Source of the DNA: Nannobrachium achirus
Taxonomy: Eukaryota > Chordata > Actinopteri > Myctophiformes > Myctophidae
DNA: 64,000 bases
Direction of reading: 5' to 3'
Assembly: GCA_963921795.1 (NCBI GenBank)
Contig: OY997650.1
Coordinates: forward strand, 12,659,653 to 12,723,652
Shown in pieces: positions 4,880 to 62,885 of this stretch. Under the pieces are notes generated by a model that saw only the letters and a list, made by a program, of their open reading frames with translations, had not been told where the DNA came from and did not search any database. Each line of letters begins with the position of its first letter. The stretch's first letter is position 1. A program made the position numbers and the translations under genes.

Positions 4880-5307
4880 CAGTGGTCCTCAACCTTTTCA
4901 GGCCGCGACCCCCAAAATAGTCATATTTTAACTGGGGACACCTCCATCCTGACAAGCACTAAAAGTTGAGGCATTACATTTTGTATAACACGGTTCTATT
5001 GTTAAAATAGCAAATCTACATGCTCACAACGCCTCGCAACGCGTGGGGTTGTGAGCATGTAGATCGACTACTTTAACAATTTCCGTCTCTAATATTTGAC
5101 AATTTGGCCAATGTTTAATTTGTCATTTTAGAGGTATTAAAAAGTCCTTAAATTGTCACTTTAGAAATGTGCAGATATACCCTCTATACACCTCAACGTT
5201 ATGTTGGTTTTGTTTACTGTTGAGTGAGAAAACAACATTGCACATTAAGTTAATCATCTGGGGACCCCCAAAATAATGTGGGGACCCCCCGAGGTTGAGA
5301 ACCACTG
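4880..5307. mobile_element. hAT MITE, CAGTGGTYCTCAACC type (family B)
   Basis: The ends are CAGTGGTCCTCAACCTTTTC and the inverse GAGGTTGAGAACCACTG. The 8-bp target duplication GCTTAGGA is exact (4872-4879, 5308-5315). It contains no reading frame for a transposase. The palindromic core lies in its middle (5001-5077). Confidence 0.9.
5001..5077. repeat. palindromic core in family B
   Basis: The arms are AAAATAGCAAATCTACATGC and GCATGTAGATCGACTACTTT, with a CACAACGCC-type stem. This copy has the CATGCTC arm variant, also seen at 24065 and 22965. Confidence 0.85.
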
Positions 5308-5642
5308 GCTTAGGATAATGGTCCCGGGTTTGATCCCCGGCTCCATGAGTTAGCACTGAAGTGCCCTTGAGCCCCAATCTACTTCTGATGAGCAGGTTGC
5401 CGTGTGAATGTGTGAGAGTGTGTGAATGGGTGAATGTAGTGCACACTTTGAAGCGCTTTGGATAAAGGCGCTATATCGTCTCTGTCGGGGCGGAAACCTC
5501 ACATGTCCAAAACTGTAACTTTTCAGGATCCAAAGCATCAAAAGCAGCAGATCTACATTACTACTTTTGATGCTTTCGTGTGACGCCGTGGTGTGATCAA
5601 GTGGGGGCGTCAAGTTACGAAAAAACATGAAAAGATAACATA

Positions 5643-5887
5643 TCGTCACTGTTGGCAAGAAGCCTTTCTCTCCAAGTTTCAAATGTGTTTTCATAAAGTG
5701 AAGCCCTGCTTCATCATACAAGACTGACGCAGAAAACTAGTGAAAATAGCAGATATACAAGCACACAACGCCTCGCGATGCGAGGCGTCGCGATGCGAGG
5801 CGTTGTGTGCTTGTAGATCGGCTATTTTCACTATTTTAAAACATTTTTAAAATTGACAGTTTTGGACTTTCCACCCGACAACGACGA
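5643..5887. mobile_element. family A MITE, inner copy
   Basis: The ends are TCGTCACTGTTGGCAAGAAG and CCACCCGACAACGACGA, with TA on both sides (5641-5642, 5888-5889). TA duplication would fit a Tc1/mariner-type origin. The core at 5740-5832 has its GCGATGCGAGGCGT stem segment duplicated. Confidence 0.7.
5740..5832. repeat. palindromic core with duplicated stem
   Basis: The outer arms GAAAATAGCAGATATACAAG and CTTGTAGATCGGCTATTTTC flank a CACAACGCCTCGC stem in which the GCGATGCGAGGCGT unit occurs twice in tandem. Confidence 0.85.
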
Positions 5888-5963
5888 TAATATGGAAATA
5901 AGAGGTTTCTGCCCCCAACGGCAACTATAATAAACTCATCGTTTGTTTACCGTTGTGCTACAG

Positions 5964-6143
5964 GCTACAGGCTGAGTGTGCCAAAACAGCCAGGATCCAG
6001 GCTGCCACCGGCATGAGTGTCAGGAAGCCTCCGCCGGTGGCCAGGCCTCCCCCAACGGCCGCCGCCGGCCCCGCCGCCCCTGGCCCCGCCGCTGCTGCCA
6101 TCCCCCCTCCCACCACCCCTCTCTACGAAGACGTGGGCGACAT
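5964..6143 (+). CDS. pcdh15: pcdh15 shared cytoplasmic exon
   Basis: This 180-nt exon encodes the start of the cytoplasmic tail common to all isoforms. It reads LQAECAKTARIQAATG, then a Pro/Ala-rich stretch (PPPVARPPP, PAAPGPAAAA), then TTPLYEDVGD. From memory, AECAKTARIQAA and LYEELGD are hallmark PCDH15 juxtamembrane sequences, so the identification is strong. Two acceptors are possible, after CAG 5961-5963 or after CAG 5968-5970. The first is chosen because it restores frame with the 9-nt microexon and keeps the conserved Q. The donor is GTGAGT at 6144. The exon ends after AT, so the next exon must begin with G; both the CD1 exon and the exon at 34595 do. Confidence 0.92.
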
Positions 6144-6959
6144 GTGAGTCCACACTGACCTCTCGTTATTCTGTCTCTACTAGCCATCGTTTGCTTACTC
6201 TTACGATTCATCGAATGATCGATATATTGGATTTTCAGACGCAACATATTATCGATTGTCTTTTTTGTGTTGAAATTTTGTACCTATTATATCATTTTTC
6301 ATAATTTGTTGAACGGATTAGTTATGTTTTCTAATGTTCATGTTCAAACGCTTAAAATAGCAGATCAAGCAGCACAGTGTAAGCCTGTAGATAATCTACT
6401 TTATTTTATTTGTTTGCCATTTTTCTTTGTCACAATATCGCTGTTTGGTCAGAATGCTCTGATATTGTCCATAATGGTCCAGCCCTGGGCTAGCTGAATG
6501 GTTGTAGTGCCATGCTCTCACTGGGGATTATCATCTCTCTGTCTGCTCTCCAAGTGCCTTTCATTTGGAGCTCATCTTGTTGTTTTAAAAACAAGCGCAA
6601 TCACAGTCCTGTATAGGTGGATATTGATTTCTTGGGGACTTTAAATCCAGTTGAGCTTTAGACACGGTGACACCTTGGATCATTGCTTCGCCGGGGACAC
6701 GGCCGCTGCATAAATGCGGTGCTCTGTTTGTCGTGTGTACACTGCGGTGACAGTCGCTGCGCTGCTCGTTAGGATTGCGCGTGACGGGTGTCTTTCCAAT
6801 TAGACCTCATGTGACTTGTCACAGCGACCTTCTCTCAAGGTGAGAGCACGCTTTAGCTCATAAAAGAGATGAAGGTTGACTGGGAATTGAAAAGACAAGA
6901 GGAGTCTGACCCATCCTCCACGGTAAGCTATACCATAGATTGCTTTTCTGCTATGACGG

Positions 6960-7480: not shown

Positions 7481-7481
7481 A

Positions 7482-7826: not shown

Positions 7827-8139
7827 CTCACTGAGTGATAGATTGCTTTTCCGCTGTCCCCATCAGCGTCAGTAAGCCTTTAAGTCTCGAATGCTTTTTC
7901 CATTAGCACAATTGAATGAGCAATGGCATGTTACTTTTTTTCCCGGTTGAACAAGATGGAAGCTAAATTGATCAATCAGTAGCGGCGGTAAATGAGGGGC
8001 TTGGACATTTTGATTTAATGCATTTTAAACCAACGCTGCTGCTTTTAATGGCACTTTAATGGTAGGTTGTAAAGAGCTGTTGATGCCGCTGTTCAAGGCA
8101 GGTGTTGTTGTTTATCAATACGAAACGGCTTAACCTATT

Positions 8140-8405
8140 CAGAACGGGTACACATTTTGTGTATCATTATTTTATGCTTTAACTATTGAAAAATAGCAGA
8201 TATACAAGCTCACAGCGCGGCACCGAGTGCCGCGCTGCAAGCTTGTAGATCTGCTATTTTTGAAAAATCGTGAAAATTAGAATTTTGACCCGATTCTGTA
8301 AGTGTCTTTTGAATCCTTCTAAGATTTTTTGACAGCAATCTGGCCAGCTATCGTCAAAGAAAAGATCCTTTTCACTCAACTGGAGCTCAGTTAGTCTGTT
8401 CTTGA
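8140..8405. mobile_element. partial MITE with core, family unresolved
   Basis: The motif TTCAGAACGGGTACAC followed by TGCTTTAACTATTG recurs at 42517 and 47652, each time just before a core. It shares its inner flank with family C. Its termini are not clear. Confidence 0.5.
8187..8262. repeat. palindromic core, CAGCGCGGCAC stem
   Basis: Arm AAAATAGCAGATATACAAGC, stem CAGCGCGGCAC, loop CGA, stem GTGCCGCGCTG, and the mirror arm ending CTGCTATTTTTG. The stem is perfect. Confidence 0.9.
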
Positions 8406-8412
8406 GAGACTA

Positions 8413-8680
8413 TGTCAGTGGTTCTCAAACCTTTTCATGTGAAGGACCCCCAAAATGATCTAGTTCCAGGGACCACCCAGAAGCAAAATTTGAGTTACAA
8501 ACTGTTGCTTTGAAAATCCATATATTCAAAGATTTGCACACATTTTCATGACTTTTTCAAAAATAGCAGATCTACAAGCTCGCAGCGCGGCACTCGGTGC
8601 CGCGCTGTGAGCTTGTATATCTGCTATTTTTCACTGGTTAAAGCATTCAATAATTCTAGGCCTAAATGGGTTAATGGAGC
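8413..8680. mobile_element. family B hAT MITE, left half with core
   Basis: It starts CAGTGGTTCTCAAACCTTTT and contains a core at about 8557-8635 (loop TCG, stem CAGCGCGGCAC). No right terminus is found before the next element begins at 8680. Confidence 0.7.
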
Positions 8681-8965
8681 AGTGCTTCTCAAGCTTTTTC
8701 ATGTCAAGGACCCCCACATTGATATGGCCACGGACCCCCATCTGAAAATGTTTTTTTTACAGGGATCCCCAGAAGAGAAGATATATGTTATTCAAAATCA
8801 CTTCACATTTTCAGATGTACAAGCTATGAGGTTATACTGTAGATCTGCAATTGTTTTGAATAGCCAACGTGTAAATGGATAAAGTTGAATGCTACGTTAA
8901 CTACAGTACTTTTGCCGGGGACCTCCTGGAACCCTCCCCACAAAGACCCCCATAGTGGTCCCCGG

Positions 8966-9387
8966 CAGGCACGTGCACACATAGGCATGAAAGGGGGCTT
9001 GAGCCCCTGCCCCCTGCCCTTATACCCATCTGTAAAAAGTGCCCTCTCCAGACCATGAATTCAGTATTCGCTATGCAAATGCCCCTCTTTCCATGCCATA
9101 CCTAGAAGGCAGCATTCAAGAGAATTGCCTTGTCCAAACTCTCCTGAACTTGAATGCAGCATCTTATGTTGAAATAATTTCCCTCTCTTTGTAGAAATCC
9201 ATGCTGTACACCACATTGCCTTTTTTATGCTTAGTTCAGTGTGGTATCAAGTACTGAAAATAGCCGACCTCCAAGCTCACAACGCGTCGCAGCGCGACGC
9301 GGTGTGAGCTTGGAGGTCTGTTATTTTCAATATTTCCCTTTTAGATATTTCAGCCTCTGCCTCTCTAACATTCTCTGCACGTCCCTG
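8966..9387. mobile_element. hAT MITE, CAGGCACGTGCA type (family D), copy 1
   Basis: The ends are CAGGCACGTGCACACA and the inverse TGCACGTCCCTG, with an exact 8-bp duplication GTCCCCGG (8958-8965, 9388-9395). The body has the family signature GGGGGCTTGAGCCCCTGCCC. The core is at 9256-9336. Confidence 0.92.
9256..9336. repeat. palindromic core in family D
   Basis: The arm is GAAAATAGCCGACCTCCAAG, with GACCTCC in place of GATCTAC, and the mirror arm CTTGGAGGTCTGTTATTTTC carries the compensating change. The stem is CACAACGCGTCGC. Confidence 0.9.
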
Positions 9388-9942: not shown

Positions 9943-10192
9943 CGTTGTCGGGTGGAAACCTCGTATCTCCAAGTTTCAAATGTGCACGTTCTTTCGCAAA
10001 GTAAAGCCCTGCTTCATCATATAAGGCCGTCGCGCAAAAGTAGTGAAAACAGCCGATCTACAAGCACACAACGCCTCGCGGTGCGAGGCGTTGTGTGCTT
10101 GTAGATCGTCTGTTTTCCTAAATCATCATCTAAAATGATAAATGCAAAACGAACGGTTTTGGACATACAAGGTTTCCACCCGACAACAACGA
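9943..10192. mobile_element. family A MITE, near-complete copy
   Basis: It is bounded by TCGTCGTTGTCGGGTGGAAA and the inverse TTTCCACCCGACAACAACGA, with TA on both sides. It contains the family text TTTGCGCAAAG-like segment, AAGCCCTGCTTCATCAT, the core, and CGGTTTTGGACATACAAGG. Confidence 0.85.
10042..10117. repeat. palindromic core, CAACGCCTCGC stem
   Basis: Arm AGTGAAAACAGCCGATCTAC, stem ACACAACGCCTCGC, loop GGT, mirrored stem, and mirror arm ending GTAGATCGTCTGTTTTC. Confidence 0.9.
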
Positions 10193-10433: not shown

Positions 10434-10694
10434 GTCGTTACTGTCGGTCAGAAACCTTCTATCTCCAAGTTTCAAATGTGTAAATTTTTTCGCAAAGTAA
10501 AGCCCTGCTTCATCATACAAAGCCGTCGCTCAAAAGTAGTGAAAACAGCAGATCTACAAGCACACAACGCCTCGCACCGCGAGGCGTTGTGTGCTTGTAG
10601 ATCGACTGTTTTCACTAGTTTAAATCATTTTTTAAATGATAAATACAAAACAAACGTTTATGGACATACAAGGTTTCCACCCGACAACGACGAT
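10434..10694. mobile_element. family A MITE
   Basis: The left end is TCGTTACTGTCGGTCAGAAA and the right end TTTCCACCCGACAACGACGA. The core at 10536-10615 has loop ACC, the inverse of the GGT loop at 10042. It lies only about 240 bp from the previous copy, in the same orientation. Confidence 0.85.
10536..10615. repeat. palindromic core, CAACGCCTCGC stem
   Basis: A perfect stem with arms GTGAAAACAGCAGATCTACA and TGTAGATCGACTGTTTTCAC. Confidence 0.92.
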
Positions 10695-12594: not shown

Positions 12595-12832
12595 TCGTCG
12601 TTGTCGGGTGAAAACCTTGTATGTCCAAAACCGTTTGTTTTGTATTTATCATTTTAAAAAAAGATTTAAACTAGTGAAAACAGCTGATCTACGAGGCGTT
12701 GTGTGCTTCTAGATCGGCTGTTTTCACTACTTTTGTGCGACGGCCTTGTACGATGAAGCAGGGCTTTACCTTGCGAAAGAACATACACATTTGAAACTTG
12801 GAGATACGAGGTTTCCACCCGACGACGATGAT
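12595..12832. mobile_element. family A MITE, inverted, shortened core
   Basis: The ends are TCGTCGTTGTCGGGTGAAAA and TTTCCACCCGACGACGATGA. The core (about 12673-12730) has lost one half of its stem, leaving GATCTACGAGGCGTTGTGTG. Confidence 0.8.
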
Positions 12833-12888: not shown

Positions 12889-13068
12889 GTAGTAACCCTG
12901 AGGACCCCCTAGGGGTCCTCCTGGACCCCCTGTTGAAGACCTCTGCTCTAGATATCCCTGTAGCCGTCCCACAATCAGGGTCCCGCATCCAGGGGCGTCA
13001 CAAGGGGTAGGAAAGTGGGACTGAGTTACCAGGGCCCAAGGTGGAGGGGCCCTAGTAACTTTAGCTAT

Positions 13069-13148
13069 TGAAAAATAGCAGATATACAAGCTCACAGCGC
13101 GGCACCGAGTGCCGCGCTGCGAGCTTGTAGATCTGCTATTTTTGAAAA
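13069..13148. repeat. palindromic core, first of two in family C
   Basis: Stem CAGCGCGGCAC, loop CGA, perfect mirror. The flanks are AGCTATTG and TGAAAAGTCG. Confidence 0.92.
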
Positions 13149-13351
13149 GTCGTAAAAATGTGTGCAAATCTTTGAATATGTATTTTTTAAGCGAACATTT
13201 GTTCCGGGGAGGGGTTCCTGGAACTAAATATTTTGAGATGGGGGTCTAGCTGTGGCCAAATACATATCATCTTGGGGGTCCTTCACATGAAAACGTTTGA
13301 GCACCACTGACATGGAAACATAGGTTTCTTGCACACATTTTCACGATTTTT

Positions 13352-13430
13352 CAAAAAATAGCAGATCTACAAGCTCGCAGCGCGGCACTCGGTGCCGCGC
13401 TGTGAGCTTGTATATCTGCTATTTTTCAAT
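13352..13430. repeat. palindromic core, second of two in family C
   Basis: Same stem as the first core but loop TCG, so this copy is in opposite orientation to the one at 13069. Confidence 0.92.
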
Positions 13431-13977
13431 AGTTAACATTCATGGGGAGGCCCGCAGTGAATCCTTGTACCCAGGGCCCAGAATTTGGTGTGACGCCCCT
13501 GCCCGCATCTAGTGCTCCTTCACAATGTACTTCACATCACAGTCTTTCCAGTGTCCTTCCTGACTCTGACTGGACTAATAATAAGTGTAGATTTTTGGGA
13601 GGTAGATCAGAGCTGTCATGCTGGCAGCCTGTGGGCCAGATGAAGCCCACAAATCAAGAAGATTTGGTGGAAGAAAAATGAATCACGGCCATTTATTATT
13701 AGCCAAACAGCTGGTTCTGCCCGCACAACGGCGGAATTTTCGCCCCAATCAGGCTCGACGTGTGACCCAAAATGACTTTGACACTCCTGGAGGCAATGGC
13801 GGAAAAAAAGTACCTACTCGTTTTCTTTTTACTTTAGTAAAAAGTATCAATACTGCAATGTACGTAGATATGCACTGTTACAAGTAAAAGGCCCATATTC
13901 TTAGTTAAGGTATAAAAGTATCAGCACCAAAAGTAAAAAGTACTAATTATGTGCACATTTCACATTCAAAAAATCTT

Positions 13978-14052
13978 TAGAAAATAGCTGATTTACAAGC
14001 TCACATTGTGTCGCATCGTGACACATTTTGAGCTTGTAGATCTGCTATTTTA
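13978..14052. repeat. palindromic core in family E
   Basis: The arms are GAAAATAGCTGATTTACAAG and CTTGTAGATCTGCTATTTTA. The inner stem is AT-richer and less perfect than in families A to D. Confidence 0.85.
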
Positions 14053-14248
14053 TATGGCCAGAATATAAATAGGGCTGAAGTGGTTAGTGTTTTTTTTAAT
14101 CAAAAACGACAAAGTAACTTTAACTAAAGTTTTCAGATAATTACAGTGGAGGTGCCTCTGATATAGTGGAACATATTGAAAATTGGAAATACTCCAGTAA
14201 AGTAAAAAATGCCTCAAAATTGTATTTAAGTACAGTTCATGGCCTTAA

Positions 14249-15125: not shown

Positions 15126-15532
15126 CAGGCACGTGCACACATAGACATCAAAGGGGGCTTGAGCCCCTGCCCTTTTATCCGTCTGTAAAAAAAAAGTGCC
15201 CTCTCCTCCAGACCATGAATGCAATTTTTACCACAGTAAAAGAAATGCAAATGGCCTCTTTCCATGCCATCACTGGAGGCAGCATTCAAGTGAATTTGCC
15301 TTGTCCAAACTCTCCTGAACTTGGAACGCAGCATCTTATGTTGAAATAATTGCCTGTTACGCCACTTCTGCAGAATTTACTTGATTATGCTTAGTTCAGT
15401 GTGGTGTCACACACCGAAAATAGCCGCGCTGCGACGTGTTGTGAGCTTGGAGGTCTGCTATTTTCACATATTTCCACCAAAAAGCCCCTTTAGAAATGTC
15501 ATACCCTGTCTCTGTTTCTCTGCACGTCCCTG
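15126..15532. mobile_element. hAT MITE family D, copy 2
   Basis: The ends are CAGGCACGTGCACACATAG and CTGCACGTCCCTG. The 8-bp duplication is CAAAGCAC/CAAAGTAC (7 of 8). The core near 15414-15465 keeps the right arm (CTTGGAGGTCTGCTATTTTC) but has lost part of the left stem. Confidence 0.85.
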
Positions 15533-16092
15533 CAAAGTACTGCATTACGTACTGTAGGCTACATAATAATTACAGAGGGGCATGTCGGTTCCCACAGAGT
15601 CATGGCGTAACTCTTTCCACATTCTGTGAGTACTTAGTTATATTTTAGCAACAGCGGGATGATGCTAAACACTGTTCACTATACAAACAAAACGCTTGGC
15701 ATGCCCTTTTGATTTCATATTTGAATGCCTTTAGGCATAATACTTGACAGGATGCTGTTTAATTTCATGATTGCGAGTGCTGTGTGTAAGTCGTGTTTGC
15801 AAAAAGCTTAGGCACTCAATAGCTCTTTAGAAAAATAACCATGAGAAAACACATTAGGGAGAAATCAAAGCTCACTGAGTTCGAGTTCATCTAAGTTCAC
15901 ACACTCCGGTGTTCTTCTTATGTGGATAGAATTGCCTCAGTAGAAAATATGAGTTTATTTTCATTTGGTACAATAAGGGCCCACTTAAATCAGTTATCTT
16001 CTGTCTTTGCAAAGAAAATATTTCCTCTGTGCCTCCAGGTACACTTATAATGAATAATACTCGATATACTTGATTTAACCTCTCCTACTTAA

Positions 16093-16730
16093 AGGGATAT
16101 TCCACTTTCAAAATAACTTTTTGTCATTTTAACGTCTAATCAGGCTTTTGGGAACACCCAGGACAGTTTTTGAATTTCTTCATTCAGTATTTAGATATTT
16201 GATATTAATTTCCCCCCATTTTCCCACTTCCAGGACCTTCCTATACAAACCCATTATAACTTCAAAATCCATTTTAACCATGATAGATTCAAAGAAAACA
16301 CCTGTCCTTCTTTCTGGTGACTTCTGACACCCTCCAAATATGTGAGCAGGCCGTGTCTTCTTTTGCTAACTTTTTGAATTTATTTTTTAGAATTTTTTAT
16401 TGTATTTAATCATTTTCATTTTCCCAAACAATTTATAGAAATCAATGAAAAATGTTATAAAAAAAAACACGGCCTGCTCACGTATTCGGAGGGTGTCAGG
16501 AGTCACCCGAAAAAAGGAAAGTTGTTTTCTTTGAATCTATCATGGTTAAAATGGAGTTTGAAGTTATAATGAGTTTGTATAGGAAGGTCCTGGAAGTGGG
16601 AAAATGGGGGGAAATGAATATCAAATATCTAAATACTGAATGAAGAAATTCAAAAACTGTCCTGGGTGTTCCCAAAAGCCTGATTAGACGATAAAATGAC
16701 AAAAAGTATTTTTGAAAGTGTAATATCCCT
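16093..16730. mobile_element. TTAA-flanked long-palindrome MITE
   Basis: TTAA lies at 16089-16092 and 16731-16734. Two arms of about 250 bp are inverted copies with small differences (AGGGATATTCCACTTTCAAA and its mirror) around a loop of about 130 bp. As RNA this would fold into a long hairpin 480 bp upstream of the CD1 exon. Confidence 0.88.
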
Positions 16731-16921
16731 TTAAGGGGAGCACACACCGGACGTGGCGCGTCAAAACACACGCCTCGATCAACGCAATGCAACATGTTGT
16801 GACGTTGTAGATCTGAATGTTATTAGCATTTATATTTTTTTCAATTTTGGAGAGTCAGATTGCATGGTTGAATTCACCAGCATAAGACTGTGACGCTAAG
16901 AGTCCTGTGAGTGAAGACTGC

Positions 16922-22620: not shown

Positions 22621-22691
22621 GGATGGTATAATTAAAAACGTCACCGTGTCCGTATATATTTATGTACAGTAGGTGCAATTCAGCCTCACAG

Positions 22692-23130
22692 TAGGGCATT
22701 CACCAAATATTTTGAATATCAAAGTCACTATTCGACGTTGTTCACCGAAGTCGAATATTCGAATATCAAAGTCACTATTCGACATTGAGCTGTCAATGCC
22801 CCTGGTGGGTGAATTTGTTAATGCTCTATACCAGGGGTTCTCAAACCTTTTTAGGCTGTGACGCCCAAAATAAACATATTTGAACTGGGGACCCCCACCC
22901 TGACAAGCACTTGGAATTGTAGGTATTACATTTAATGTGACTCTGTTCCGCAGATAAATATTGTGAAAATAGCGCGTTGTGAGCATGTAGATCTGCTATG
23001 TTCTGCTATGTTCTCCTCTTGCTTACTTCATATTTGACAGTTTGGCCAGTCCTGTCGAATATTCGACTATTCGAATACTTTGAGGTCGAATAATTTGAAT
23101 ACTAAAAATCACTATTCGTGAATGCCCTAC
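22692..23130. mobile_element. AGGGCATTCAC MITE with nested family B half
   Basis: The ends AGGGCATTCACCAAATATT and the inverse ATTCGTGAATGCCCT enclose TCGAATATTCGA-rich sequence. A family B left end (CAGGGGTTCTCAAACC) starts at about 22833 and carries a partial core (GAAAATAGCGCGTTGTGAGC, about 22964-23000). Confidence 0.7.
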
Positions 23131-23944: not shown

Positions 23945-24345
23945 CCACTGGTTCTCAACCTTTTCAGTCCGCGACCCCCCAAATAATCATATTTTAACTG
24001 GGGACCCCCTCCGCCCTGACAAGCACTAAGAGTTGATGCATTACATTTTTTATAATACGGTTCTATTTTGAAAATAGCAGATCTACATGCTCACGACGCT
24101 TCTCGTTGTCGGGCGTTGTGAGCGTGTAGATCGTCTATTTTCACAATTTCTGCCTCTAATATTTGACAATTTGGCCAATGTTTAATTTGTCATTTTAGAG
24201 GTATTTAAAAAGTCCTTAAATTGTCACTTTAGAAATGTGCATATACCCGCTATACACTTAAACTTTATGTTGCTTTGTTTAGTGTTGAGAGAGAAAACAA
24301 TGTTGCACATTAAATTAATCATCTGGGGACCCTCAAAATAATTGT
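23945..24345. mobile_element. family B hAT MITE, right end lost
   Basis: CACTGGTTCTCAACCTTTTC starts the copy, which closely follows the 4880-5307 copy in order of text (TAACTGGGGACC, GACAAGCACTAA, core, ATTTGACAATTTGGCC). It breaks off near CTCAAAATAA, where a partial core right arm follows (24345-24370). Confidence 0.8.
24065..24145. repeat. palindromic core, CATGCTC arm variant
   Basis: The arms GAAAATAGCAGATCTACATG and GTGTAGATCGTCTATTTTCA flank a CACGACGCTTCTCG stem with mismatches. Confidence 0.8.
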
Positions 24346-29517: not shown

Positions 29518-29770
29518 TTGTCGGGTGGAAACCTTGTATGTCCAAAACCGTTAGCATTTTAAAAATGATTTAAACTAGTGAAAACAGCCGATCTACAAGC
29601 ACACAACGCCTCGCACCGCGAGGCGTTGTGTGCTTGTAGATCAGCTGTTTTCAATACTTTTGTGCGAGTCAGTGCGACGGCCTTGTATGATGAAGCAGGG
29701 CTTTGCTTTGCGAAAAATTTTACAAATTTGAAACTTGGAGATACAAGGTTTCTGCTCCAACAGTGACGAT
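29518..29770. mobile_element. family A MITE
   Basis: The left end is TCGTTGTCGGGTGGAAACC and the right end AAGGTTTCTGCTCCAACAGT. The core (29575-29655) has a perfect CACAACGCCTCGC stem with loop ACC. Confidence 0.82.
29575..29655. repeat. palindromic core in family A
   Basis: Arms AGTGAAAACAGCCGATCTAC and GTAGATCAGCTGTTTTCA, with a perfect inner stem. Confidence 0.92.
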
Positions 29771-32985: not shown

Positions 32986-33611
32986 CAAGGGTGTCGCACC
33001 AAATTCTGGGCCCTGGGTACAAGGATTCACTTCAGTTATTTTGTGCTTTAACTATTGAAAAATAGCAGATCTACAAGCTCGCAGCGCGGCACTCGGTGTC
33101 GCGCTGTGAGCTTGTAGATCTGCTATTTTCCAATAGCTAAAGTATAAAATAATCAAGGCCCCTCCACCTTGGGCCCTAGTAACTCAGCACCGAGTGCCAC
33201 GCTGCGAGCTTGTAGATTTGCTATTTTTGAAAAATCGTGAAAATGTGTGCAAGTCTTTGAATGTTTCAAATCATTCTAAGGTTTTTTGAAAAACCTATGT
33301 TTCTATGTCAGTGGCGCTCAAACCTTTTCATGTGAAGGACCCCCAAAATGATATATGCATATTTGGCCGCAGACCCCCCATCTCAAAATATTTAGTTCCA
33401 GGGACCCCCCCAGAAGCAAAATTTGAGTTAATTTCTTTTAATAAAAAATACATATTCAAAGATAAAGAAAAAACTGATCTACAAGCTCGCAGCGCGGCAC
33501 CGTGAGCTTGTAGATCTGCTATTTTCCAATAGCTAAAGTATAAAATAATCAAGGCCCCTCCACCTTGGGCCCTAGTAACTCAGTCCCGCTCCCCCCCTTG
33601 TGATGCCCCTG
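32986..33611. mobile_element. hAT MITE family C, composite with family B
   Basis: The ends are CAAGGGTGTCGCACC and TTGTGATGCCCCTG, with an exact 8-bp duplication AACGTGTT (32978-32985, 33612-33619). It holds a full core at 33055-33132, a half core near 33188-33230, family B text (CGCTCAAACCTTTTCATGTG, 33314) and another reduced core at 33470-33525. Parts of its left and right thirds repeat each other. Confidence 0.85.
33055..33132. repeat. palindromic core in family C
   Basis: Stem CAGCGCGGCAC, loop TCG, with one mismatch in the right stem. The arms extend to CTATTG and CAATAG. Confidence 0.9.
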
Positions 33612-33894: not shown

Positions 33895-33972
33895 ATTGAA
33901 AAATAGCAGATATACAAGCTCACAGCGCGGCACTTGGTGCCGCGCTGCGAGCTTGTAGATCTGCTATTCTTT
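33895..33972. repeat. palindromic core
   Basis: AAAATAGCAGATATACAAGC, a CAGCGCGGCAC-type stem, and a mirror arm GCTTGTAGATCTGCTATTC. Confidence 0.88.
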
Positions 33973-34309
33973 GAAAAATCATGATTTGTTTTAGCAATTC
34001 TTTGAATATATCTATTTAAAGATCGAACATTTGTAACTCAAATCTCTGCTTCTGGGTGGTCCCTGGAACAACATATTTTGAGATGAGCTTATTGTAAGTC
34101 GCTTTGGATTAAAAGCGTCTGCTAAATGCCTAAACTGTAAACTGTAAACTGTAGATGGGGTCAGTGGCCCAATGCCTGTAATTTTGGGGGTCCTTGACAT
34201 GAAAAAGTTTTAGAACCACTGATTTAGAGGAAGGATTTAGAAGTCGGATCAAAGATCAGGCGAAAGATATTCAAAGACTTGCACACATTTTCAGGATTTT
34301 TCAAAAGAA

Positions 34310-34372
34310 TCTACAAGCTCGCAGCACAGCACTCGGTGCCGCGCTGTGAGCTTGTAGATCTGCTATTTTTCA
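34310..34372. repeat. palindromic core, left arm shortened
   Basis: The left arm is reduced to ATCTACAAGCTCGCAGC; the right arm GCTTGTAGATCTGCTATTTT is complete. Confidence 0.85.
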
Positions 34373-36764: not shown

Positions 36765-36990
36765 CCTCGAGAAAAACCTTCTATGTCAGAAACGGTTCGT
36801 TTCGTATTTATCATTTAGAAAATTATTTAAAATAGTGAAAATAGCCGATCAACAAGCACACAACACCTCACAACACGAGGCGTGTGTGCTTGTAAACCTG
36901 CTATTTTCACTAGCTTTGTGCGACAGTCTTAGCAGGGCTTTACTTTACGAAAAAACCTACAAATTTGAAACCGACAGTGACGTTATACTA
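36765..36990. mobile_element. family A MITE, degraded ends
   Basis: CCTTCTATGTCAGAAACGG and GAAACCGACAGTGACG mark the ends. The core at 36830-36912 has arms GTGAAAATAGCCGATCAACA and TTGTAAACCTGCTATTTTCA and a shortened CACAACACCTC stem. Confidence 0.7.
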
Positions 36991-37256: not shown

Positions 37257-37946
37257 CGGGGATCCACATGCCCAAAAGCTCAAGGAATAGGGTAGGACCT
37301 GTGATTTTCTGCCACACTTTTTATTTCTGTTTTATCTATTCGTTTGGTCATTAAGGTCCACAGAATGAGAGGCCTGCTCTGCCAGAAACATCGCGAAAAA
37401 AAGTTATGGCCATTTTTATATTCACTGCCCCATGACTCCATATAAAAAAAGAAGAAAAAGAATCTGCTTTAAGTAGCATGTGAGGGGTCAAACTAGGGGT
37501 TCTTCATCATTCTGAATCCATTGCAAGCATTTGTTTTGCATGAAAACATTCCTTGGGCAAAATATTGGCCCCCAACAACTGTGAAAAGTGATGAGTCATC
37601 ACTTTTTTTTCCACTTTTCACAGTTTTGGGTGGCCAACATTTTGCCCAAGGAATGTTTTTCATGCAAAATAAATGCTTGCAATGGATTCAGAATGATGAA
37701 GAACCCCTAGTTTGACCCCTCACATGCTACTTAAAGCCGATTTTTTTTCTTTTTTTAATATTTCTAGTGGAGTCAATGGGACAGTGAATATACAAATGGC
37801 CATAACTTTTTTTCGCGATGTTTCCGGCAGAGCAGGCCTCTCATTCTGTGGACCTTAATGACCAAACTAATAGATAAAACAGAAATAAAAAGTGCGGCAG
37901 AACATCTCAGGTCCTCGCCCATTTTGGTGACTGGATCCCCGGCTAA
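37257..37946. mobile_element. 690-bp near-perfect palindrome MITE
   Basis: The ends are TCGGGGATCC and GGATCCCCGGC. Two arms of about 330 bp mirror each other closely, including ATGAGAGGCCTGCTCTGCC, GTGAGGGGTCAAACTAGGGG and CATTCCTTGGGCAAAAT, and meet at about 37595. A copy of the left end starts near 63875. Confidence 0.88.
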
Positions 37947-38245: not shown

Positions 38246-39193
38246 CAGTGATTCTGAACCATTTTAATTTCAAAGTCCCCCAGTTTGATATGCATGGACC
38301 TACACAGTAGTTGTATCCTCAGTGTTCATTTAACTCTGAGCGTGTACAAATTGACCCGTCAGCAGTGGCGTCAGTTCAGAAAAAGCTAAGGTATGGCAAC
38401 ATGACTAAAGGCCTGTCCATACTTTGACCGAAACCGCCGTTTTCGGTCAAAAGGTCCTTTTCTACCATAAAATTATATCCCTCGGGACTTCTGAAAAGCA
38501 TTGGACCGAACGAGAGTTCGGAAATTTGCACGTCGGAAAACACAACTCACCGAACATTTCGGTCGAAGTATGGAGAGGCCTTTAGACACCAGTCATGTTG
38601 CCATATCTTAGCAACAGGCATGATACATTTATTTTAAGAAGTACATTACATTTTTTCCCCTGTTTCTACGGTTTCTTGGGCTGGATATGGCAGCCTGGAA
38701 CAGTTGTTCAAGTGCAGCTAAACGTGGCATGTTAGTAAATGCGCCACAATTAAGAATAATGCATTGCACCTGTGCAGCTGACCTGCGGAACCTGGGAATA
38801 TACCATTTTGTCAAGATGGGGAGAATACAAGTGTGGAGAATATAATTATAATACCTTGTTAAAGTGACCATTTTGTTAAATTTTGCATTTGTAGTTATTT
38901 TACTGTAATTTAACAACATAATAACCAGAACAGATAGACAAAGAGACATTCATGGATTTATATTTAAAATTAACTTTTATGTTCATGTTCCCCCCTGGAC
39001 CCAGGGTATGGCAGCTGCATACCCCTGCCATACCCAATTGACGCCCCACGCCCGTCAGAGTCCATTTGTACACTCTCAGAGTTACAGACCCATAAGGGTC
39101 CATTTGGTTCCTATTTATCATTTGCCTGGGGACGGCCTTGAATCCCCTGAAGGACCCCATGGGGATCCCTGGCCCCTGCTTTGAGAACCACTG
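38246..39193. mobile_element. family B MITE hosting further elements
   Basis: CAGTGATTCTGAACC on the left and TTTGAGAACCACTG on the right bound the copy. Inside is a GAGAGTGTACAAATGGACC-type repeat, split by the hAT element at 38363-39050. Another family B start (CAGTGGTTCCTCAACC) lies at 38140. Confidence 0.7.
38363..39050. mobile_element. hAT MITE, CAGTGGCGTCAG type, with inner MITE
   Basis: An exact 8-bp duplication CCCGTCAG (38355-38362, 39051-39058) flanks ends CAGTGGCGTCAGTTCAG and CAATTGACGCCCCACG. At 38408-38585 a smaller palindromic MITE (GGCCTGTCCATACTTTGACC and mirror) is inserted. About 400 bp of its body recurs at 53811-54215 at high similarity. Confidence 0.88.
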
Positions 39194-39430: not shown

Positions 39431-39864
39431 CACGCACGCACAGTGGTGAAAAGTAACAAAGTACATGTACACAAGTACTGTACGGTACGGGACACATTTT
39501 CAGTAATTGTACTTCTACTTTACTACCTGTCAACGGCAGAAATTGTACTTTTACTCCACTACAATTATTTGAAAACTTTATTTAGTTAGTTACTATTTTG
39601 TTTACTATTACAAAACATACATTACCACTTCAGCCCTAGGCCTATACACATTTCAGCCATTTGAACATAGCCGATCTACAAGCTCAACACAATTTGTCGT
39701 GATGTGATGCATTGTGAGCTTGTAGATCTGCCATTTTCAAAATATTGTATACATTTGAAAACTGGGACATTCAGCTAATGAGTACTTTTATTAAAGTACA
39801 TTTTTAATTCAAAACTTTTACTTTAAACAGAGAATCTCTAAAATTGCAGTTTTGATACTTTTAC
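39431..39864. mobile_element. family E copy with core
   Basis: CAGTGGTGAAAAGTAACAAA starts the copy, which contains TTTTACTCCACTACAATT. The core at 39660-39738 has an imperfect AT-richer stem (CAACACAATTTGTCG). Confidence 0.78.
39660..39738. repeat. palindromic core in family E
   Basis: Arms ATAGCCGATCTACAAGCTCA and GAGCTTGTAGATCTGCCATT around a decayed stem. Confidence 0.85.
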
Positions 39865-41683: not shown

Positions 41684-42153
41684 CAGGCACATGCACACAT
41701 AGACATCAAAGGGGGCTTGAGCCCTGCCCTTTTATCTGTCTGTAAAAAGTGCCTTCTCCAGACCATGAATGCAGTCTTAACTATGGTGAAAGAAATGCAA
41801 ATGTGCTCTCTCCGTGCCATACTCTCCTGAACTTGAATGCAGCATCTTATGTTGAAAGAACTGGCCTAGAAATCCATGCCGTTACGCCCCATCTCCAGTG
41901 TTAACTTGATTATGCTTAGTTCAGTGTGGCACTGAATTGTAAGAAACATCACAATTCATACTGTTATGCTATGATGTTTTCTAATAAAACTTGAACTTGT
42001 ATCACGCAAAGGAAATAGCCGACCTCCAAGCTCACAACGCGTCGCAGCGTGGCGCGTTGTGAGCTTGGAGGTCTGCTATTTTCAATATTTCCACCAAAAG
42101 GCCCTTTTAGAAATCCCAGCCCCTGCCTCTCTAACATTATCTGCAAGTCCCTG
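41684..42153. mobile_element. hAT MITE family D, copy 3
   Basis: The ends are CAGGCACATGCACACATAG and CTGCAAGTCCCTG, with an exact 8-bp duplication CTCCCTGT (41676-41683, 42154-42161). A short AT-rich insertion (about 41935-42000) precedes the core at 42012-42087. Confidence 0.9.
42012..42087. repeat. palindromic core in family D
   Basis: It shares the GACCTCCAAGCTC arm and CACAACGCGTCGC stem with copy 1 (9256), so this arm variant is family-specific. Confidence 0.9.
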
Positions 42154-42565: not shown

Positions 42566-42637
42566 GAAAAATAGCAGATCTACAAGCTCACAGCGCGGCA
42601 CCGAGTGCCACGCTGCAAGCTTGTAGATCTGCTAAAC
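42566..42637. repeat. palindromic core
   Basis: AAAATAGCAGATCTACAAGC, CAGCGCGGCAC stem, loop CGA, right arm GCTTGTAGATCTGCTA. It is preceded by the TTCAGAACAGGTACAC motif seen at 8140. Confidence 0.88.
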
Positions 42638-42689
42638 ATCTTGAACATTTGAATTTTGGGTTACCTCTCATGTCCATATTCCAAATTTG

Positions 42690-42868
42690 TGTCTTCTCGT
42701 AAATCAAAACGCCCTACTTGATAACAGCGTCGCTCAAAATCATCAAAAATAGCAGATCAACAAGCTCGAAACACGGCGCGAAGCGACACGTTTTGAGCTT
42801 GCAGATCTGCTATTTTTTGCCATTTTTGAATTTGACCAAGGCTTTGTCCACACCCAACAGAGACGATA
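42690..42868. mobile_element. family A-related MITE with core
   Basis: TATTCCAAATTTGTGTCTTC and CACACCCAACAGAGACGAT are degraded family A text. The core (42745-42820) has a GAAACACGGCGCG stem. Confidence 0.6.
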
Positions 42869-47649: not shown

Positions 47650-48200
47650 CCATTCAGAACGGGTACACTGTATTGTGTATCATTATTTTATGCTTTAACT
47701 ATTGAAAAATAGCAGATATACAAGCTCACAGCACGACACCGAGTGCCGCGCTGCGAGCTTGTAGATCGTGAAAATTAGAATTTTGACCCCCAAAGTGTCT
47801 TTTGAATCCTTCTAAGATTTTCTAAAAAAAAACTATGTTTCTATGTCAGCAATCTGGCTAGCCATCGTCAAAGAAAAGGTCCTTTTCACTTAACTGGAGC
47901 TCAGTTAGTTTGTTCTTGAGAGACTACTGTCAGTGGTTCTCAAACCTTTTCATGTGAAGGACCCCCAAAATTATATTTATTTGGCCACGGACACCCATCT
48001 CAAAATATTTAGTTCCAGGGACCACCCAGAAGCAAGATTTGAGTTACAAATGTTTAAAAAATACATATATTCAAAGATTTGCACACATTTTCACAACTTC
48101 TTCAGAAATAGCAGATCTACAAGCTCGCAGCGTGGCACTCGGTGCCGCGCTGTGAGCTTGTATATCTGCTATTTTTCACTGGTAAAAGCATTCAATAATT
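47650..48200. mobile_element. B/C-type composite with two cores
   Basis: It repeats the order seen at 8140-8680: the TTCAGAACGGGTACAC motif, a core (47703-47767, right arm cut short), a segment with CTTTTCACTTAACTGGAGCTC, then family B CAGTGGTTCTCAAACC and a second core at 48106-48178. The two regions are long-range duplicates of each other. Confidence 0.78.
48106..48178. repeat. palindromic core
   Basis: GAAATAGCAGATCTACAAGC, a CAGCGTGGCAC/GTGCCGCGCTG stem, loop TCG, and a right arm with TATATCTGC as at 8557 and 13352. Confidence 0.88.
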
Positions 48201-52927: not shown

Positions 52928-53785
52928 CTGACCATTGCTGGACGATAGTTTTCATTCCTGTTTATTACCATGTTTGCCATGCAATTTTTGTTGTTGTTGT
53001 TGTTTGTTTTTGTTTGTTTGTATATTAGAGAACGCGTGCGTAACATTTTATTGTGCTGTTATGCCTCAGCTTGTCAAGTACCAATCATTTTCCGAGGCAT
53101 ACGACTGCGACGCTCACAGTATACTTTATATTACGGCTGACCATTTTCCAAATCATTGAGAGAGAGGTAGTAAGGAATGCAATTGTTATTGTTTTTACAG
53201 CCAATTCAAAATTAATGACAAGAAAATTCCTGTTGGGCCTCCATCTTCCACTGCAATAATTCAGCATAATCTTGGTGATTTTGCTGATAATGTAAAGCCA
53301 GGAATTTAGGAGCAAATTTACCACAAATGTAATTAATCCAAGTAAATGAGGTGGTCTGGTCTCACAAACCTCATCTCCAATTCGTTCAGAACGCAGCAGC
53401 CAGATTGTTAAGTATAAAACTAAATAGCGAAGCACACTACACCAGTTTTAGCCTCCCACACATTAGCCAAACATGGCCCATTGGTCACCCAAAATCACCC
53501 AGAAGCCTTGCCAACTGCCAGCAGTCTGTGTTGTTTGTGTCAACACAGTTGACATATTAACTGGTTTGGTATTACAATATGTGGTGGCACATGTGCTCGA
53601 CATTGGCAAATGCAGAGACATTATCCTTTAGTATATTGTGGAAGTATTCATATTAATTTGGATTTGTTAGTGAAAGGAGTAAGTACATCAAATGCAAATA
53701 AGCCTATATGACAACTGTCCACCCTCCAAGCATCTCCAAACCCAGCACAGCTCCACAACACTCCTGGCCAGCAAGACTGGTGTCT

Positions 53786-53822
53786 TGCACACGCGCCTTC
53801 GCGCACGCGCAAGACACCAGTC
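53786..53822. repeat. GC-rich hairpin
   Basis: TGTCTTGCACACGCG is mirrored by CGCGCAAGACA, with CCTTCGCGCA at the centre. Confidence 0.75.
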
Positions 53823-54215
53823 ATGTTGCCATACCTTAGCAACAGGCATGATACCATTTATTTTAAGAAGTACATTTTATTTTTCCCCCGTTTCTATGGT
53901 TTCTTGGGCTGGATACATGGCAGCCTGGAACGGTTGTTCAAGAGCAGCTAAACTTGGCATGTTAGTAAACGTGCCACAACGTGCAACAATAATGCATTGC
54001 ACCTGTGCAGCTGACCTGCCAGTATACCATTATGTCAAGATGAGGAGAATACAAGTATGGAGAATATAATTATAATACCTTGTTAAAGTGTCCATTTTGT
54101 AAAATGTTGTTATTTTACTGTAACTTAACAACATAATAATCAGCACAGATAAACAAAGAGACATTCATGAATTTATATTTCAAAGTAACTTTTGTTTTCC
54201 CCCCTGGACCCAAGT
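53811..54215. mobile_element. partial copy of the 38363 hAT element body
   Basis: GACACCAGTCATGTTGCCAT through CCCCCCTGGACCCA follows the copy at 38585-39002 with few changes. The termini are missing. Confidence 0.85.
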
Positions 54216-54571: not shown

Positions 54572-54988
54572 GCTTGTGATGACTTCGGGGACGCCCCTTT
54601 ACACTTTTCAAAACACCTTTGAAATAATTATCGTTGTTTTGAAATGTCTAGCTGAAAATACACCCTGGAGAAAATGTTTCTTTACAAACAAAACTTTAGT
54701 CCATGACCTTTATATCACAGAATGACAGAATATCACCTGGAGTAGCAGATACTTTTAATATGTTTTTTATCTTTGAACACATTGTGACACATCGTGTCAG
54801 ATCCGATCTGCTGTTTTCTGGGAATGCTTGGAGATTTTTTATCTGATGTTCACCTATGCTCAGAGAAGAAAGGGAGGGTTCACACGGTTAGGAAAACAAC
54901 AGTAATGTGTGGTAATTATTTCTGAATCTAACAGATTGCGGCCTGCTTTGGAAAATGGTCAACAGTCATCTCAAGTGTACCGTTTATT

Positions 54989-55290
54989 AGGGCTGGGAAA
55001 TCAATCAAAAATGTATCAAAACCAAAATGTAATAATACAATTTAATAGATTTTTTTTTAAATTGACTAAACCTGATTAGTCTGATTAGGCACTTAAACCT
55101 TAATAAAATAGCCGACATACAAGCTCACAACATGCCACGATGTAACACGTTGTGAGCTTGTAGATCTGCCATTTCCACTATTAGTTATTTTCTGATATCC
55201 GTTCAGTAATCGTAATCGAGATTCGAGAGTAATCGTTAGTTTGAAATAATCGTGATATTGATTGTGATATTGATCGTGCCCAGCCCTACT
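54989..55290. mobile_element. GGGCTGGGAAATC MITE with core
   Basis: GGGCTGGGAAATCAATC and the inverse GATCGTGCCCAGCCCT bound AT-rich text. A core at 55107-55185 (AAAATAGCCGACATACAAGC and mirror) sits in the middle; its stem CACAACATGCCACG is decayed. Confidence 0.8.
55107..55185. repeat. palindromic core in GGGCTGGG family
   Basis: The arms are well kept and the inner stem is imperfect. The host family is unrelated at its ends to families A-E. Confidence 0.85.
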
Positions 55291-60003: not shown

Positions 60004-60029
60004 GGGGGGGGGGGGGGGGGGGGGGGGGG
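60004..60029. repeat. poly-G tract (26 G)
   Basis: An uninterrupted G run inside a region with single core arms (60155-60180, 60245-60260). Confidence 0.9.
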
Positions 60030-60479
60030 TGGATCAATCTTAGTCTGGCCTCTCTCCTTTGACCTGTCCGGCAAGCGTGACGCTGGCAGGAGTGCAAGAC
60101 TCCAGCTGGTATAGCTCGTGGGATCCTTAAGGCACGCAAACCTCCCACCCCACCAGAGCTTGTAGATCGGCTGTTTTCACTAGTATGGCACTGAACTAAC
60201 ACATGAACACACAGGATTGTATAGGCTGAGCAGCTGGAAATGTTTCTGAGCTTGTAGATGGGCTGAGGAATTTATAGTGTCAGCAGCTCGTCAGCCAACT
60301 CAACTCAGCTGGTCCTGTACAGGTGACGGCACTCAAGGCAATCAGCCGAGCAAGGGAAGGGAGGGGCAGATGAGCAGTCAGAGGCAAACACAGGCACACT
60401 GAGGAAAAGAGGGACCGACCGACTCCGACCGACAGACCGACAGACCGACAAAGCCTTTTGTAGGCCGACCCCCTGGGTC

Positions 60480-60800
60480 TGGCAAATAGCAGATATATTA
60501 GCTCGCAGCGCAGCACTCGCCCATCTCAAAATATTTAGTTCCAGGGACCTCCCAGAAGCAAAATTTGAGTTAAAAATGTTCGGTTAAAAATACATAGATT
60601 TGCGGACATTTTCACGACTTTTAAAAAAGAGCAGATCTACAAGGTCGCAGCGCGCTGTGAGCTTGTAGATTTGCTATTTTTCAATAGCTAAAGTATAAAA
60701 TAATTAAGGCCCCTCCACAAAGGTACCTTGCCACCTTTCTAAAGTACATTCCAACCACTTTGGGCCCTAGTAACCCCCCCCCCCCCCCTCCCCCCCTTGT
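60480..60800. mobile_element. B/C composite, truncated, with reduced core
   Basis: A left arm GCAAATAGCAGATATATTAG at 60481 joins family B text (TCTCAAAATATTTAGTTCCA). A shortened core at 60625-60682 then joins the family C end (CCCTCCACAAAG, GTGACGCCCCTG at 60799). Confidence 0.7.
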
Positions 60801-61219
60801 GACGCCCCTGTGCGAGACAATACCACTAGTGACAAATAATAAACCCTCTCTCCATTCTCGATTCCTCTCCATTCCCCAAAGGAGGCGGGAAAAAAACATG
60901 GCTTCAATTTTGTGATTTCATTGAATCTACACAGCAGAATTTGACATTGATCGTCAAATTCAGTAATCCCAGTAATTAGCCGTTTCAGTGCTTTGACCTC
61001 TAAATACAAATGACTCCCTTGGATGTTCCTCCATATGAAGGCATGTATTGCTGCAGAAATAATGAGGCAGTCGTCATACTGAAACAATACAGCGCTGCAG
61101 AGCTTCATGGAGCTCCATAAATCTCAGAGGACACGGAGGAAATCCTGCCTTAAGAGGCTGATTATCCCTCCAGCAGGGAGTCTGCACAGTTCGTAGTGGC
61201 TGTGGCTATGTAGCCTACA

Positions 61220-61445
61220 CACAGCCAGTCAGGGGTGTCACACCAAATTCGGGGCCCTGGGTACAAGGATTCACGGTGGGCCCCCCGTGAATGTTCTTCA
61301 TAGGGGGAGGGGCTTTAACCCATTCCGGGAACGCATTATTTTGTGCTTTAACTATTGCAAAATAGCAGATATACAAGCTCACAGGGTGGCACCAAGTGCC
61401 GCGATGCGAGCTTGTAGATCTGCTATTTTTGAAAAATGGTGATTT
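61220..61445. mobile_element. family C left half with core
   Basis: CAGGGGTGTCACACCAAATTC starts the copy. A core at 61354-61434 has stem CAGGGTGGCAC with mismatches. The right half is absent; a different element (CTAGGGGTCTTCAACG) begins at about 61478, carrying its own reduced core at 61775-61825. Confidence 0.75.
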
Positions 61446-62885
61446 TTGGTCACTGCACCTCAGAGGTTAGCCGTCTAGGGGTCTTCAACGTTTTCAGGCC
61501 AAGGACCCCTTAGCTCAGAGACAGATGAAGCAAGGACCCCCACTACATGTTGTATAAAACTGCGTTGCAGATTATCATCGATTTCATAGGTAGATTCATA
61601 GACTTGTTTGACAGCACTGTCATCAGTCGATGTTGGATTCGTGTTAGGCCTATGTGGGTTTTTTTTCCAGACATCTAATCACTTCAATTGTTGATGCATG
61701 GTAAACTTGACCTATCACTCGGTACTTGGTCTGCTCTTTTTTTTACCTCCACACCAAACCTATTTGCCGAAAATAGCGGATCTGCGAGGCGTTGAGAGCT
61801 TGTAGATCTGCTATTTTAGGCAAAAGTTCAAGTTGTGGTTGGAATAAAGACTTAATGCAAATGCAATTTCCGGAAGTTGGTGGTTTAAGAGGCATACATA
61901 TATTATATCAACCTTTTCGACTAAAAAAATATTTTTTTACATCATCATGTGTGCGCTCATAGTGGCCCTTTTCCACTAAGAAAGGAAATCCAGAACCTTC
62001 CAAATCCTGAAACTTTCCAGAACCCATTATAATAACTAGAAAACTTAAAAAGCATATAACTTCCGAGTTCTTCTGGATTCCCCCAGAACTCGGACTAACC
62101 AGCATGCACAGCATGCACCTCCCCTGGGCTCAAATTAGGTCCTGAGAAATGTATGTGAAAGCAAGCCATAGCATATGGAAACAAATCCAGACCCTGTGAA
62201 ATATGTTTCACAGCGCTGCCTGTTTCACTAGGTTCTGGTATTGTCGAACAGAGCTATAACTTGCCATGGGTGGAGCATGCAGCAGCGTGCAGGGCTGCAG
62301 CAGATGAGCCCACAATCCTTCAGTTCAATCCTTCAGTTCAGAATAAAGTATCTTCACAAGAAAGGCATCAATAAAGAATCTCGGTGCGATCAAATATTGA
62401 TGGTGAATGTATAAAAACAATGACGCAAACTCAATGGAGCGAGGGTCTCATGAAAGACAATTCTGTCCTTTCAAATATACGAGGACTCGGCTCTGCGTTG
62501 GAATATTATTAACGTATACTGTATTATTGCTAACATCTTTCATGCGTCCTGAATAGCGTTCATATATTTAGCATGACAAAAGAAAACATACAAAACCACC
62601 TGGGAACTTTGCTGACATAATGAATCCAATCATTCATGCTGTGAGTAGGGCATGTGCAAATACATGACATATTACAATTTACAAGTTATGCAGGGTTGCC
62701 AACTTGCCAACATTGGACTGTCGTTATGTGAAAATCCTATGACGTTTATCACATCTGACAACACACATTTAATCCCTTTTATGCCTATTCATAGAGATCC
62801 CTGTCTGAACCAGCCACACAGATAGGGGCTGTCTTCCTCCATATATGGGCATTCCCATATGAAGTCCTGTTAGATATGGGCTTAA

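Follow-up and report, generated by a model that had tools for sequence, protein, structure and literature searches.

A palindromic core with fixed edges, shared by MITE families of unrelated ends in Nannobrachium achirus and possibly acquired at their birth

Internal deletion, or abortive gap repair, is the model by which miniature inverted-repeat transposable elements (MITEs) of the hAT, piggyBac-like and TA types are formed, and it is an open problem how MITE families originate and why few of them explode while most remain small. Izsvak et al. are said to have proposed in 1999 that the hairpin of Angel, a teleost fold-back MITE, acts in its amplification; bacterial insertion sequences of the IS1397 type enter the hairpins of repeated palindromes. 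A copy number in zebrafish is given in a further article (PMC2579443). We analysed a stretch of 64,000 nucleotides from Nannobrachium achirus (GenBank assembly GCA_963921795.1, contig OY997650.1, positions 12,659,653 to 12,723,652 of the forward strand), hereafter the window, in which one small palindrome, hereafter the core, lies within MITEs of several families, hereafter the hosts.

The hosts resemble MITEs born by internal deletion in being short and present in high copy number, in their familiar ends and target duplications and in joining two unlike halves, but here the joint holds the same 71-bp palindrome across different transposon types. They share the fold-back with Angel and other teleost fold-back MITEs, in which the entire element forms the palindrome and belongs to a single family, whereas the palindrome is here small and extends across families; we know of no core in the AAGTAC and AGGGCTGGG repeats of other teleosts. 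Arms templated by one another and short-homology deletions inside a palindrome are also features of quasi-palindrome template-switch mutation and of palindrome instability, but the known cases act at a single locus and are not known to seed transposon families. The likeness to IS1397-type elements lies in the short palindrome used as a target; those elements encode a transposase, whereas a gene for such a protein would not fit into the core. A precisely bounded joint, common to families of different transposon types, would record MITE birth in a form that can be counted and would make rival models of that birth testable in any genome carrying the core.

The preliminary description of the window had reported a fold-back of about 75 bp, present about 50 times. 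This palindrome is real, is mostly 71 bp long and is found in 46 copies in the window. Its 22-bp arm AAAATAGCAGATCTACAAGCTC and the complement are matched 81 times there (36 forward and 45 reverse, with at most six mismatches), against 0–3 matches in ten mononucleotide shuffles. A core profile, made from 19 window cores and their complements, was searched against the window and 28 other loci, the total sequence sampled amounting to about 0.3 Mb, window included. It gives 147 non-overlapping matches at E≤1 (the window has 46, the 20 scattered 10-kb stretches 93 and the arm-selected loci 8), 119 of them at E<1e-3, and a single match in the reversed control sequence. The density of 0.48 copies/kb, in 192.7 kb of non-N scattered sequence, would correspond to roughly 0.8 million cores in the 1.66-Gb assembly, a rough extrapolation in which weak copies are counted. 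The search of the whole genome for the core arm, which had been proposed as a check, gives 134,293 matches (67,315 + 66,978) for one exact 20-mer and none for the control, while exact-pattern core scans of IMG/VR contigs and of GTDB genomes gave 0 and 0 matches. No literature title that we found describes such a core, which does not show that it is unpublished. At about 0.5 copies per kb, the core can merge unrelated families in automatic clustering and is thus a hazard for repeat annotation.

Among 68 copies matched nearly from end to end, the core measures 71 bp in 37 and 70 bp in 6, the remaining lengths spanning 46 to 95 bp and being mostly below 71 bp. DNA folding of five window cores gives -23.7 to -38.9 kcal/mol, with z values of -8.4 to -14.2, and the surroundings usually form no long palindrome, as the left-right match is at background about 8 bp outside the core across families. 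In the 37 full cores, both arms carry an identical non-consensus base in 81 cells, versus 39 ± 7.5 after permutation (maximum 62), these cells being a tally of copies, not of events, with C copies numerous among the 37. Family-specific centres (GCGGCAC, GCCTCGC, GCGTCGC and GCATCGC) also change in a paired fashion. Asymmetric cells outnumber the paired ones (127 in the same cores), and the pairing of the arms was therefore probably fixed at the origin of each family, with drift afterwards.

The flanks of the cores cluster according to host, and the superfamily names of the hosts are drawn from ends and target duplications. In the window, hosts B, C2 and D are hAT-like, with CA...TG inverted ends and 8-bp target duplications found on both sides: GCTTAGGA for the B copy at 4880–5307 (plus strand, CAGTGGTCCTCAACC...GGTTGAGAACCACTG), CCCGCATC for the C2 copy at 12990–13501, GTCCCCGG and CTCCCTGT for the D copies at 8966–9387 (CAGGCACGTGCA...TGCACGTCCCTG) and 41684–42153, and a pair matching at 7 of 8 positions for the D copy at 15126–15532 (all three D copies on the plus strand). 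The length of the duplication and the form of the ends would make all three hosts hAT MITEs. Hosts C1 and H0 carry TTAACC...GGTTAA ends (TTAACCCATTTAG/CTAAATGGGTTAA and TTAACCACTTGAACC/GGTTCAAGTGGTTAA in several copies, other copies having degenerate ends or only one of the two), and TTAA together with CC...GG ends places them as putative piggyBac-like MITEs. Hosts A and G, with TA at or near the ends of several copies and end positions that are not exact, are probably of the TA type. Outside the window, host H is found at six loci (L007, L009, L016, L017, L023 and L025), and further hosts are Hp (L004, L016:1503), I (L001–L003), J (L005, L006, L013) and K (L013, L017, L028). An 8-kb span of contig C1 holds all three copies of I, and the J copies of L005 and L006 are about 2 kb apart; because of this close spacing, they may be local duplications.

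Hosts with unrelated ends do share the core, and its edges are sharp. Between-family identity, calculated from one consensus per family over 367 arm pairs, is 0.22–0.41 in the 15 bases outside the core, versus 0.8–1.0 at 20 of the first 22 positions inside it (0.43 and 0.73 at the two remaining ones). This test is restricted to copies that the profile matched as far as the end of the core, K contributing none, and the high identity at the first inner bases is therefore partly built in, the outer fall being unaffected. In the far flanks, from the 13th base outwards, A, B, D and H show no match with one another. The long homology outside the core, which would have spoken against unrelated hosts, is present between C1 and C2 and among H, Hp and J, is weak for E, takes the form of a B-like hAT end in C1, and is absent between A, B, D and H. 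Helitrons are recognised by TC...CTRR ends, insertion between A and T and the lack of a target duplication; the core starts with AAAATAGC, ends with GCTATTTT and agrees with them only in having no target duplication.

The reading that we favour, with a probability of about 0.38, is that the core was acquired at the birth of MITEs by hairpin-primed template switching, and would be a discrete palindromic cassette and not the relic of one ancestral MITE. During the repair of a large internal gap in a transposon, a 3' end would switch onto a core hairpin elsewhere; it would copy the core and fold back, so that one arm would template the other, sometimes along with a few flank bases. The copied end would then join the opposite transposon end, and the resulting core-bearing MITE would be amplified by its own transposase. 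Other hosts (C2, part of E and the element at 22691) would have gained the core through the nesting of core-bearing MITEs. Capture with hairpin-primed copying would explain why the core lies at a joint of unlike halves, without target duplication and with paired arm changes, and would also account for short inverted flanks where present, for the contrast between sub-families A1 and A2 (see below) and for the scarcity of core-free hosts. A broader proposal is that a non-coding palindrome of fixed edges passes from one transposon superfamily to another with no target duplication, enters or founds the hairpin joint of new MITEs and, as the recipient families reach very high copy number, acts as a reusable amplification module seeding MITE families; we regard it as doubtful.

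Several properties of the flanks bear on this reading. No target duplication was found directly around the core, where the preliminary description had suggested looking for one: direct repeats of 2–6 bp are not above permutation in 18 contexts, and 8-mer direct matches are slightly high (49 vs 38.9 ± 5.0, 584 of 20,000 permutations), an excess that palindromic flanks can yield. Inverted resemblance between the two flanks is on the contrary marked, with 91 matches in 18 hand-picked contexts vs 63.7 ± 6.0 after permutation of the sides (none of 20,000 as high). With each of 15 families represented by one random copy, the matches add up to 73.0 (66–79) vs 54.0 ± 4.9, with 23 of 90,000 permutations as high; the sum is 60.1 vs 46.2 ± 4.2 without J and M (13 families, 271 of 90,000), and 61.9 vs 46.9 ± 4.4 when cores are grouped by far flank (13 groups, 57 of 40,000). 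Short, family-specific inverted flanks characterise about half the families, namely A, B, H, I, J, K and M: out of 8 positions, chance being about 3.5, the means are 7.0 for J, 6.7 for I, 6.5 for A, 6.0 for K and for M, 5.6 for B and 5.4 for H. In host A, one host arm is homologous between A1 and A2, yet the five bases between this arm and the core agree at only one position of five, and within A1 as within A2 they match the opposite side at five of five. This pattern suggests that the base of the stem was copied from side to side, or that a longer stem was exchanged.

Core-less copies of hosts A and B, whose junctions were also to be compared, are few. Host A has 249 core-less places (both flanks, with 0–30 bases between) vs 21,048 exact left core junctions, and host B 106 vs 5,849, ratios that are approximate because exact letters are required on both sides for a core-less match but on one side only for a junction match. 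Among the matches listed, 99 of 100 core-less A strings (249 in total) keep, by eye, at least three or four letters of the core end; about 76–80 of 100 core-less B strings (106 in total) keep core letters and about 20–24 have no clear ones, 14 of the 100 listed having one form in common, in which only TTTT is left. The B joints without clear core letters vary, GGTTCTATTTCTGCC being found at five places. Fourteen core-less B copies of three recurrent junction types were examined in detail. The six whose 5' end was located have six different flanking 8-mers, and divergence from the joint consensus is 0.02–0.37 for core-less and 0.04–0.17 for core-bearing copies, the highest values coming partly from unalignable flanks. 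Junction types 1 and 2 are each spread over at least two sub-lineages and have core-bearing copies close by, in a tree whose support is mostly low. In our reading, most core-less copies of A and B arose by repeated short-homology deletion, and a small core-free or precisely excised group could still be hidden among them. A TA-flanked inner unit, whose empty site would be AAAA-TA-TTTT, was also considered: GTGAAAATATTTTCACAAT is found at five of the listed core-less B places, but many other endpoints exist (AAAATAGCAGCTATTTT, AAAATAGCTATTTT and others), and this candidate was rejected. Of four GTGAAAATATTTTCACAAT-type copies, two are near-identical and pair in the tree, where the other two are placed apart from them; we read this joint as probably a deletion. 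Separately, two near-identical core-less B copies, at L028:7800–8135 and 8961–9296, lie about 1.16 kb apart with near-identical flanks and represent a segmental duplication.

Part of these results weighs against acquisition by template switching. First, template switching alone leaves the constant AAAA/TTTT edge, seen in many families, unexplained. Second, the inverted-flank means are near background for C (4.4), D (4.0), E (3.5), G (3.0) and several single contexts (3.0–4.0). Third, some outer stem bases are inherited and not family-specific: CACTA is the commonest first pentamer in 5 of 52 flank clusters and is matched within one mismatch in 14 of 52, about 0.8 being expected at even base frequencies, the 14 being a tally of clusters, not of hosts, that includes B, D and some clusters from one host. 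Judging from these bases, a longer, CACTA-like form of the core unit likely existed. Fourth, the A1/A2 contrast is a single case, with one copy of each. Finally, some core-less joints are almost clean: one A string (contig C6:10048342, CTAGTGACTAC) has no core letters and is one base short of a clean joint, B joints within a base of it are found at two places (ATTGTTCACAATT) and at one place (ATTGTGACAATT), and core-less B copies are at a slightly smaller mean distance from copies of their own junction type (0.29, two being near-identical) than from those of another type (0.34).

An alternative, which is a serious though minority possibility, is that the core is its own mobile unit. It would enter the loops at the tips of short palindromes, chiefly in other MITEs that would then carry it along, and would leave no target duplication. 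Edges fixed across unrelated contexts, host-specific inverted flanks without direct repeats in about half of the families and the four near-clean sites among the 200 listed A and B strings are all in its favour, and the CACTA-like outer bases of 14 of the 52 flank clusters would follow from the spread of a single longer form of the unit. Yet no exact empty site is found in the listed core-less strings of A (100 of 249) or of B (100 of 106), each family has one core position and not many, and the flanking pentamer differs between A1 and A2 on the side where the host arm is unchanged. Insertion into hairpin tips moreover predicts inverted flanks in every family, whereas none are visible in C, D, E and G, and it predicts core-free hosts; the core itself is too short for protein coding. 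The independent mobility put forward in the preliminary description is thus not demonstrated, as there is neither a target duplication nor, in the listed strings, an exact empty site.

The same description had taken all hosts as unrelated. This holds for A, B, D and H0, which have only the core in common in the tests made here, but some other hosts are related by nesting. Its family C splits into C1, a TTAA element with two cores, and C2, a hAT-like element (CAGGGGCGTCAC) that contains the C1 inner block with both cores, the C1 end TTAACCCATTCCG being visible inside C2 at 61315. An AGGGCATTCAC element at 22691–23130 contains a B segment that matches at 81% over 104 bp and lies beside a core remnant, and in five H copies (L007, L009:7016, L016:8459, L017:9523 and L023) TTAACCACTTGAACC-like ends, with at most 4 of 15 mismatches, flank the core on both sides within hAT-like ends. 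In host E, a motif resembling the H0 end is found on one side only, at 14073, 39621 and 7598, a resemblance for which no chance level is given, and the arm score of the E copy at 13981 is barely above shuffles (17.5 vs a maximum of 17.0); the AAGTAC repeat (E) probably carries the arm of a TTAA element. The match of about 70% over 66–74 bp between B and C corresponds to a B-like hAT end within C1. When cores are grouped by either far flank, 13 groups are obtained, B being merged with C, and A with H; the A–H link, which depends on one A copy (L026:2446) and on L016:1503, is read by us as nesting. C1 in C2, the B part in the AGGGCATTCAC element and H0 in hAT-like hosts are alike to known nested or mosaic transposons, but nesting leaves the sharing of the core by A, B, D and H0 unaccounted for.

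Nesting is the basis of another explanation, in which core-bearing TTAA elements (H0 and C1) were nested in all hosts and then eroded down to the core. C1 within C2, H0 within the hAT-like hosts, with both-sided ends in the five H copies, and the one-sided motif near the core in the three E copies (given without chance level) agree with it. It is nevertheless unlikely and disfavoured: when the H0 and C1 arms are compared with the flanks of A, B, D, G, I and K, no score exceeds the best of 60 shuffles, and erosion would not halt at the identical base, left and right, in all families. The H0 and C1 arms are of like length and share CCTAG, but a common origin for them is not supported: 41 of 500 shuffles reach their global alignment score of 7.5.

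Less probable still is the exchange of MITE halves by cruciform breakage and rejoining between distant cores (palindrome-palindrome joining). Palindromes of such a kind break and rejoin in other systems, many central deletions are seen here and the two flanks of the A2-related element at 42746 do not resemble each other; but rejoining should mix ends, and clearly unlike ends are found in 1 of 12 pairs only (L023:4081–4604, with an H element within), in a weak test that covers hAT-type ends. The swapping of MITE ends by template switching between hairpins, which had been suggested earlier, likewise survives only as nesting (C1 in C2, the B part in the element at 22691), nothing beyond it being seen. 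Finally, descent of all hosts from one core-bearing MITE whose outer parts diverged past recognition would explain the common centre but is highly improbable, as most positions within the core are 80–100% alike but identity drops to about chance at its edge, target duplications differ among hosts, and between-family homology past the core is found only for C1/C2, for H/Hp/J and for B/C (about 70% over 66–74 bp).

In the window, the hAT-like B copy at 4880–5307 holds a 71-bp core at 5004–5074, and another B core lies at 24071–24141; in the AGGGCATTCAC element, the nested B part (about 100 bp, 22832–22933) adjoins the core remnant (22972–23002). Core arms are also present upstream of position 5001, at 596 and 1148. 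The D copies carry their cores at 9257–9327 (with the variant GACCTCC on both arms), at 15423–15464 (shortened) and at 42012–42082. Host A is represented by elements at 9947–10184 (bounded by GTCGGGTGGAAACC end repeats, core 10046–10116), 10443–10685 (core 10542–10612) and 12603–12823 (core cut to 48 bp, 12677–12724), and by cores at 5743–5828 (86 bp, with an enlarged centre), 29581–29651 and 36838–36907 (70 bp). Sub-family A2 has a shortened core with GCATCA/TGATGC flanks at 5535–5573, the A2-related element has its core at 42746–42816, and an A2-type element at 558–748 has a partial core (596–623); immediately before it, a direct duplication of about 180 bp is visible by eye at 204–540.

The C1 element at 8130–8674 (TTAACC...GGTTAA) has its two cores at 8190–8260 and 8560–8630. 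Other C1 cores lie at 33900–33970, at 34309–34369 (truncated left arm) and at 47706–47767 (truncated end), the last belonging to an element whose second core is at 48105–48175; the C1 element whose end is still recognisable at 61315 within a C2 host has a core at 61359–61429. The C2 copy at 12990–13501 contains cores at 13072–13142 and, inverted, at 13355–13425, and the core of a C2-type host at 33059–33129 forms 34 base pairs with a loop of 3. Two further cores of the C family are shortened (33476–33525) or altered at the right end (42568–42638). Between two cores of a C-type host, 34081–34135 matches the 3' element of the long interspersed nuclear element UnaL2 (Rfam RF00436) with 55.1 bits for a cut-off of 55. 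Host E, the AAGTAC-type repeat, has cores at 13981–14051 and 39664–39737, accompanied by the H0-like end motifs at 14073 and 39621, respectively; host G (TAGGGCTGGG...CCCAGCCCTA) spans 54988–55288 with a core at 55105–55175, and a partial core with an AGGCAAA flank lies at 61782–61817.

Two arrangements of partial cores were observed outside the window. At L025:2688–2828, core arms are repeated several times, head to tail and inverted, and resemble stuttered copies of an arm. A lone 20-bp half arm is found in near-identical surroundings at L012:7342–7361 and 8748–8767, probably a local duplication that includes half a core.

Long inverted repeats with no listed core are present at 16088–16735, 37286–37923 and 63230–63730 (arms of 310 bp, of 148 and 112 bp, and of 187 bp, respectively), and not all local fold-back elements therefore bear the core. 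A hAT-like MITE beginning with CAGGGGCGTCAAT is found in several copies in the sample, at L020:810–1311 and, in the window, at 38578–39047 and 53769–54212; the L020 copy, which is the one checked for cores by its ends, has none. This MITE is a core-less family alongside the core-bearing ones.

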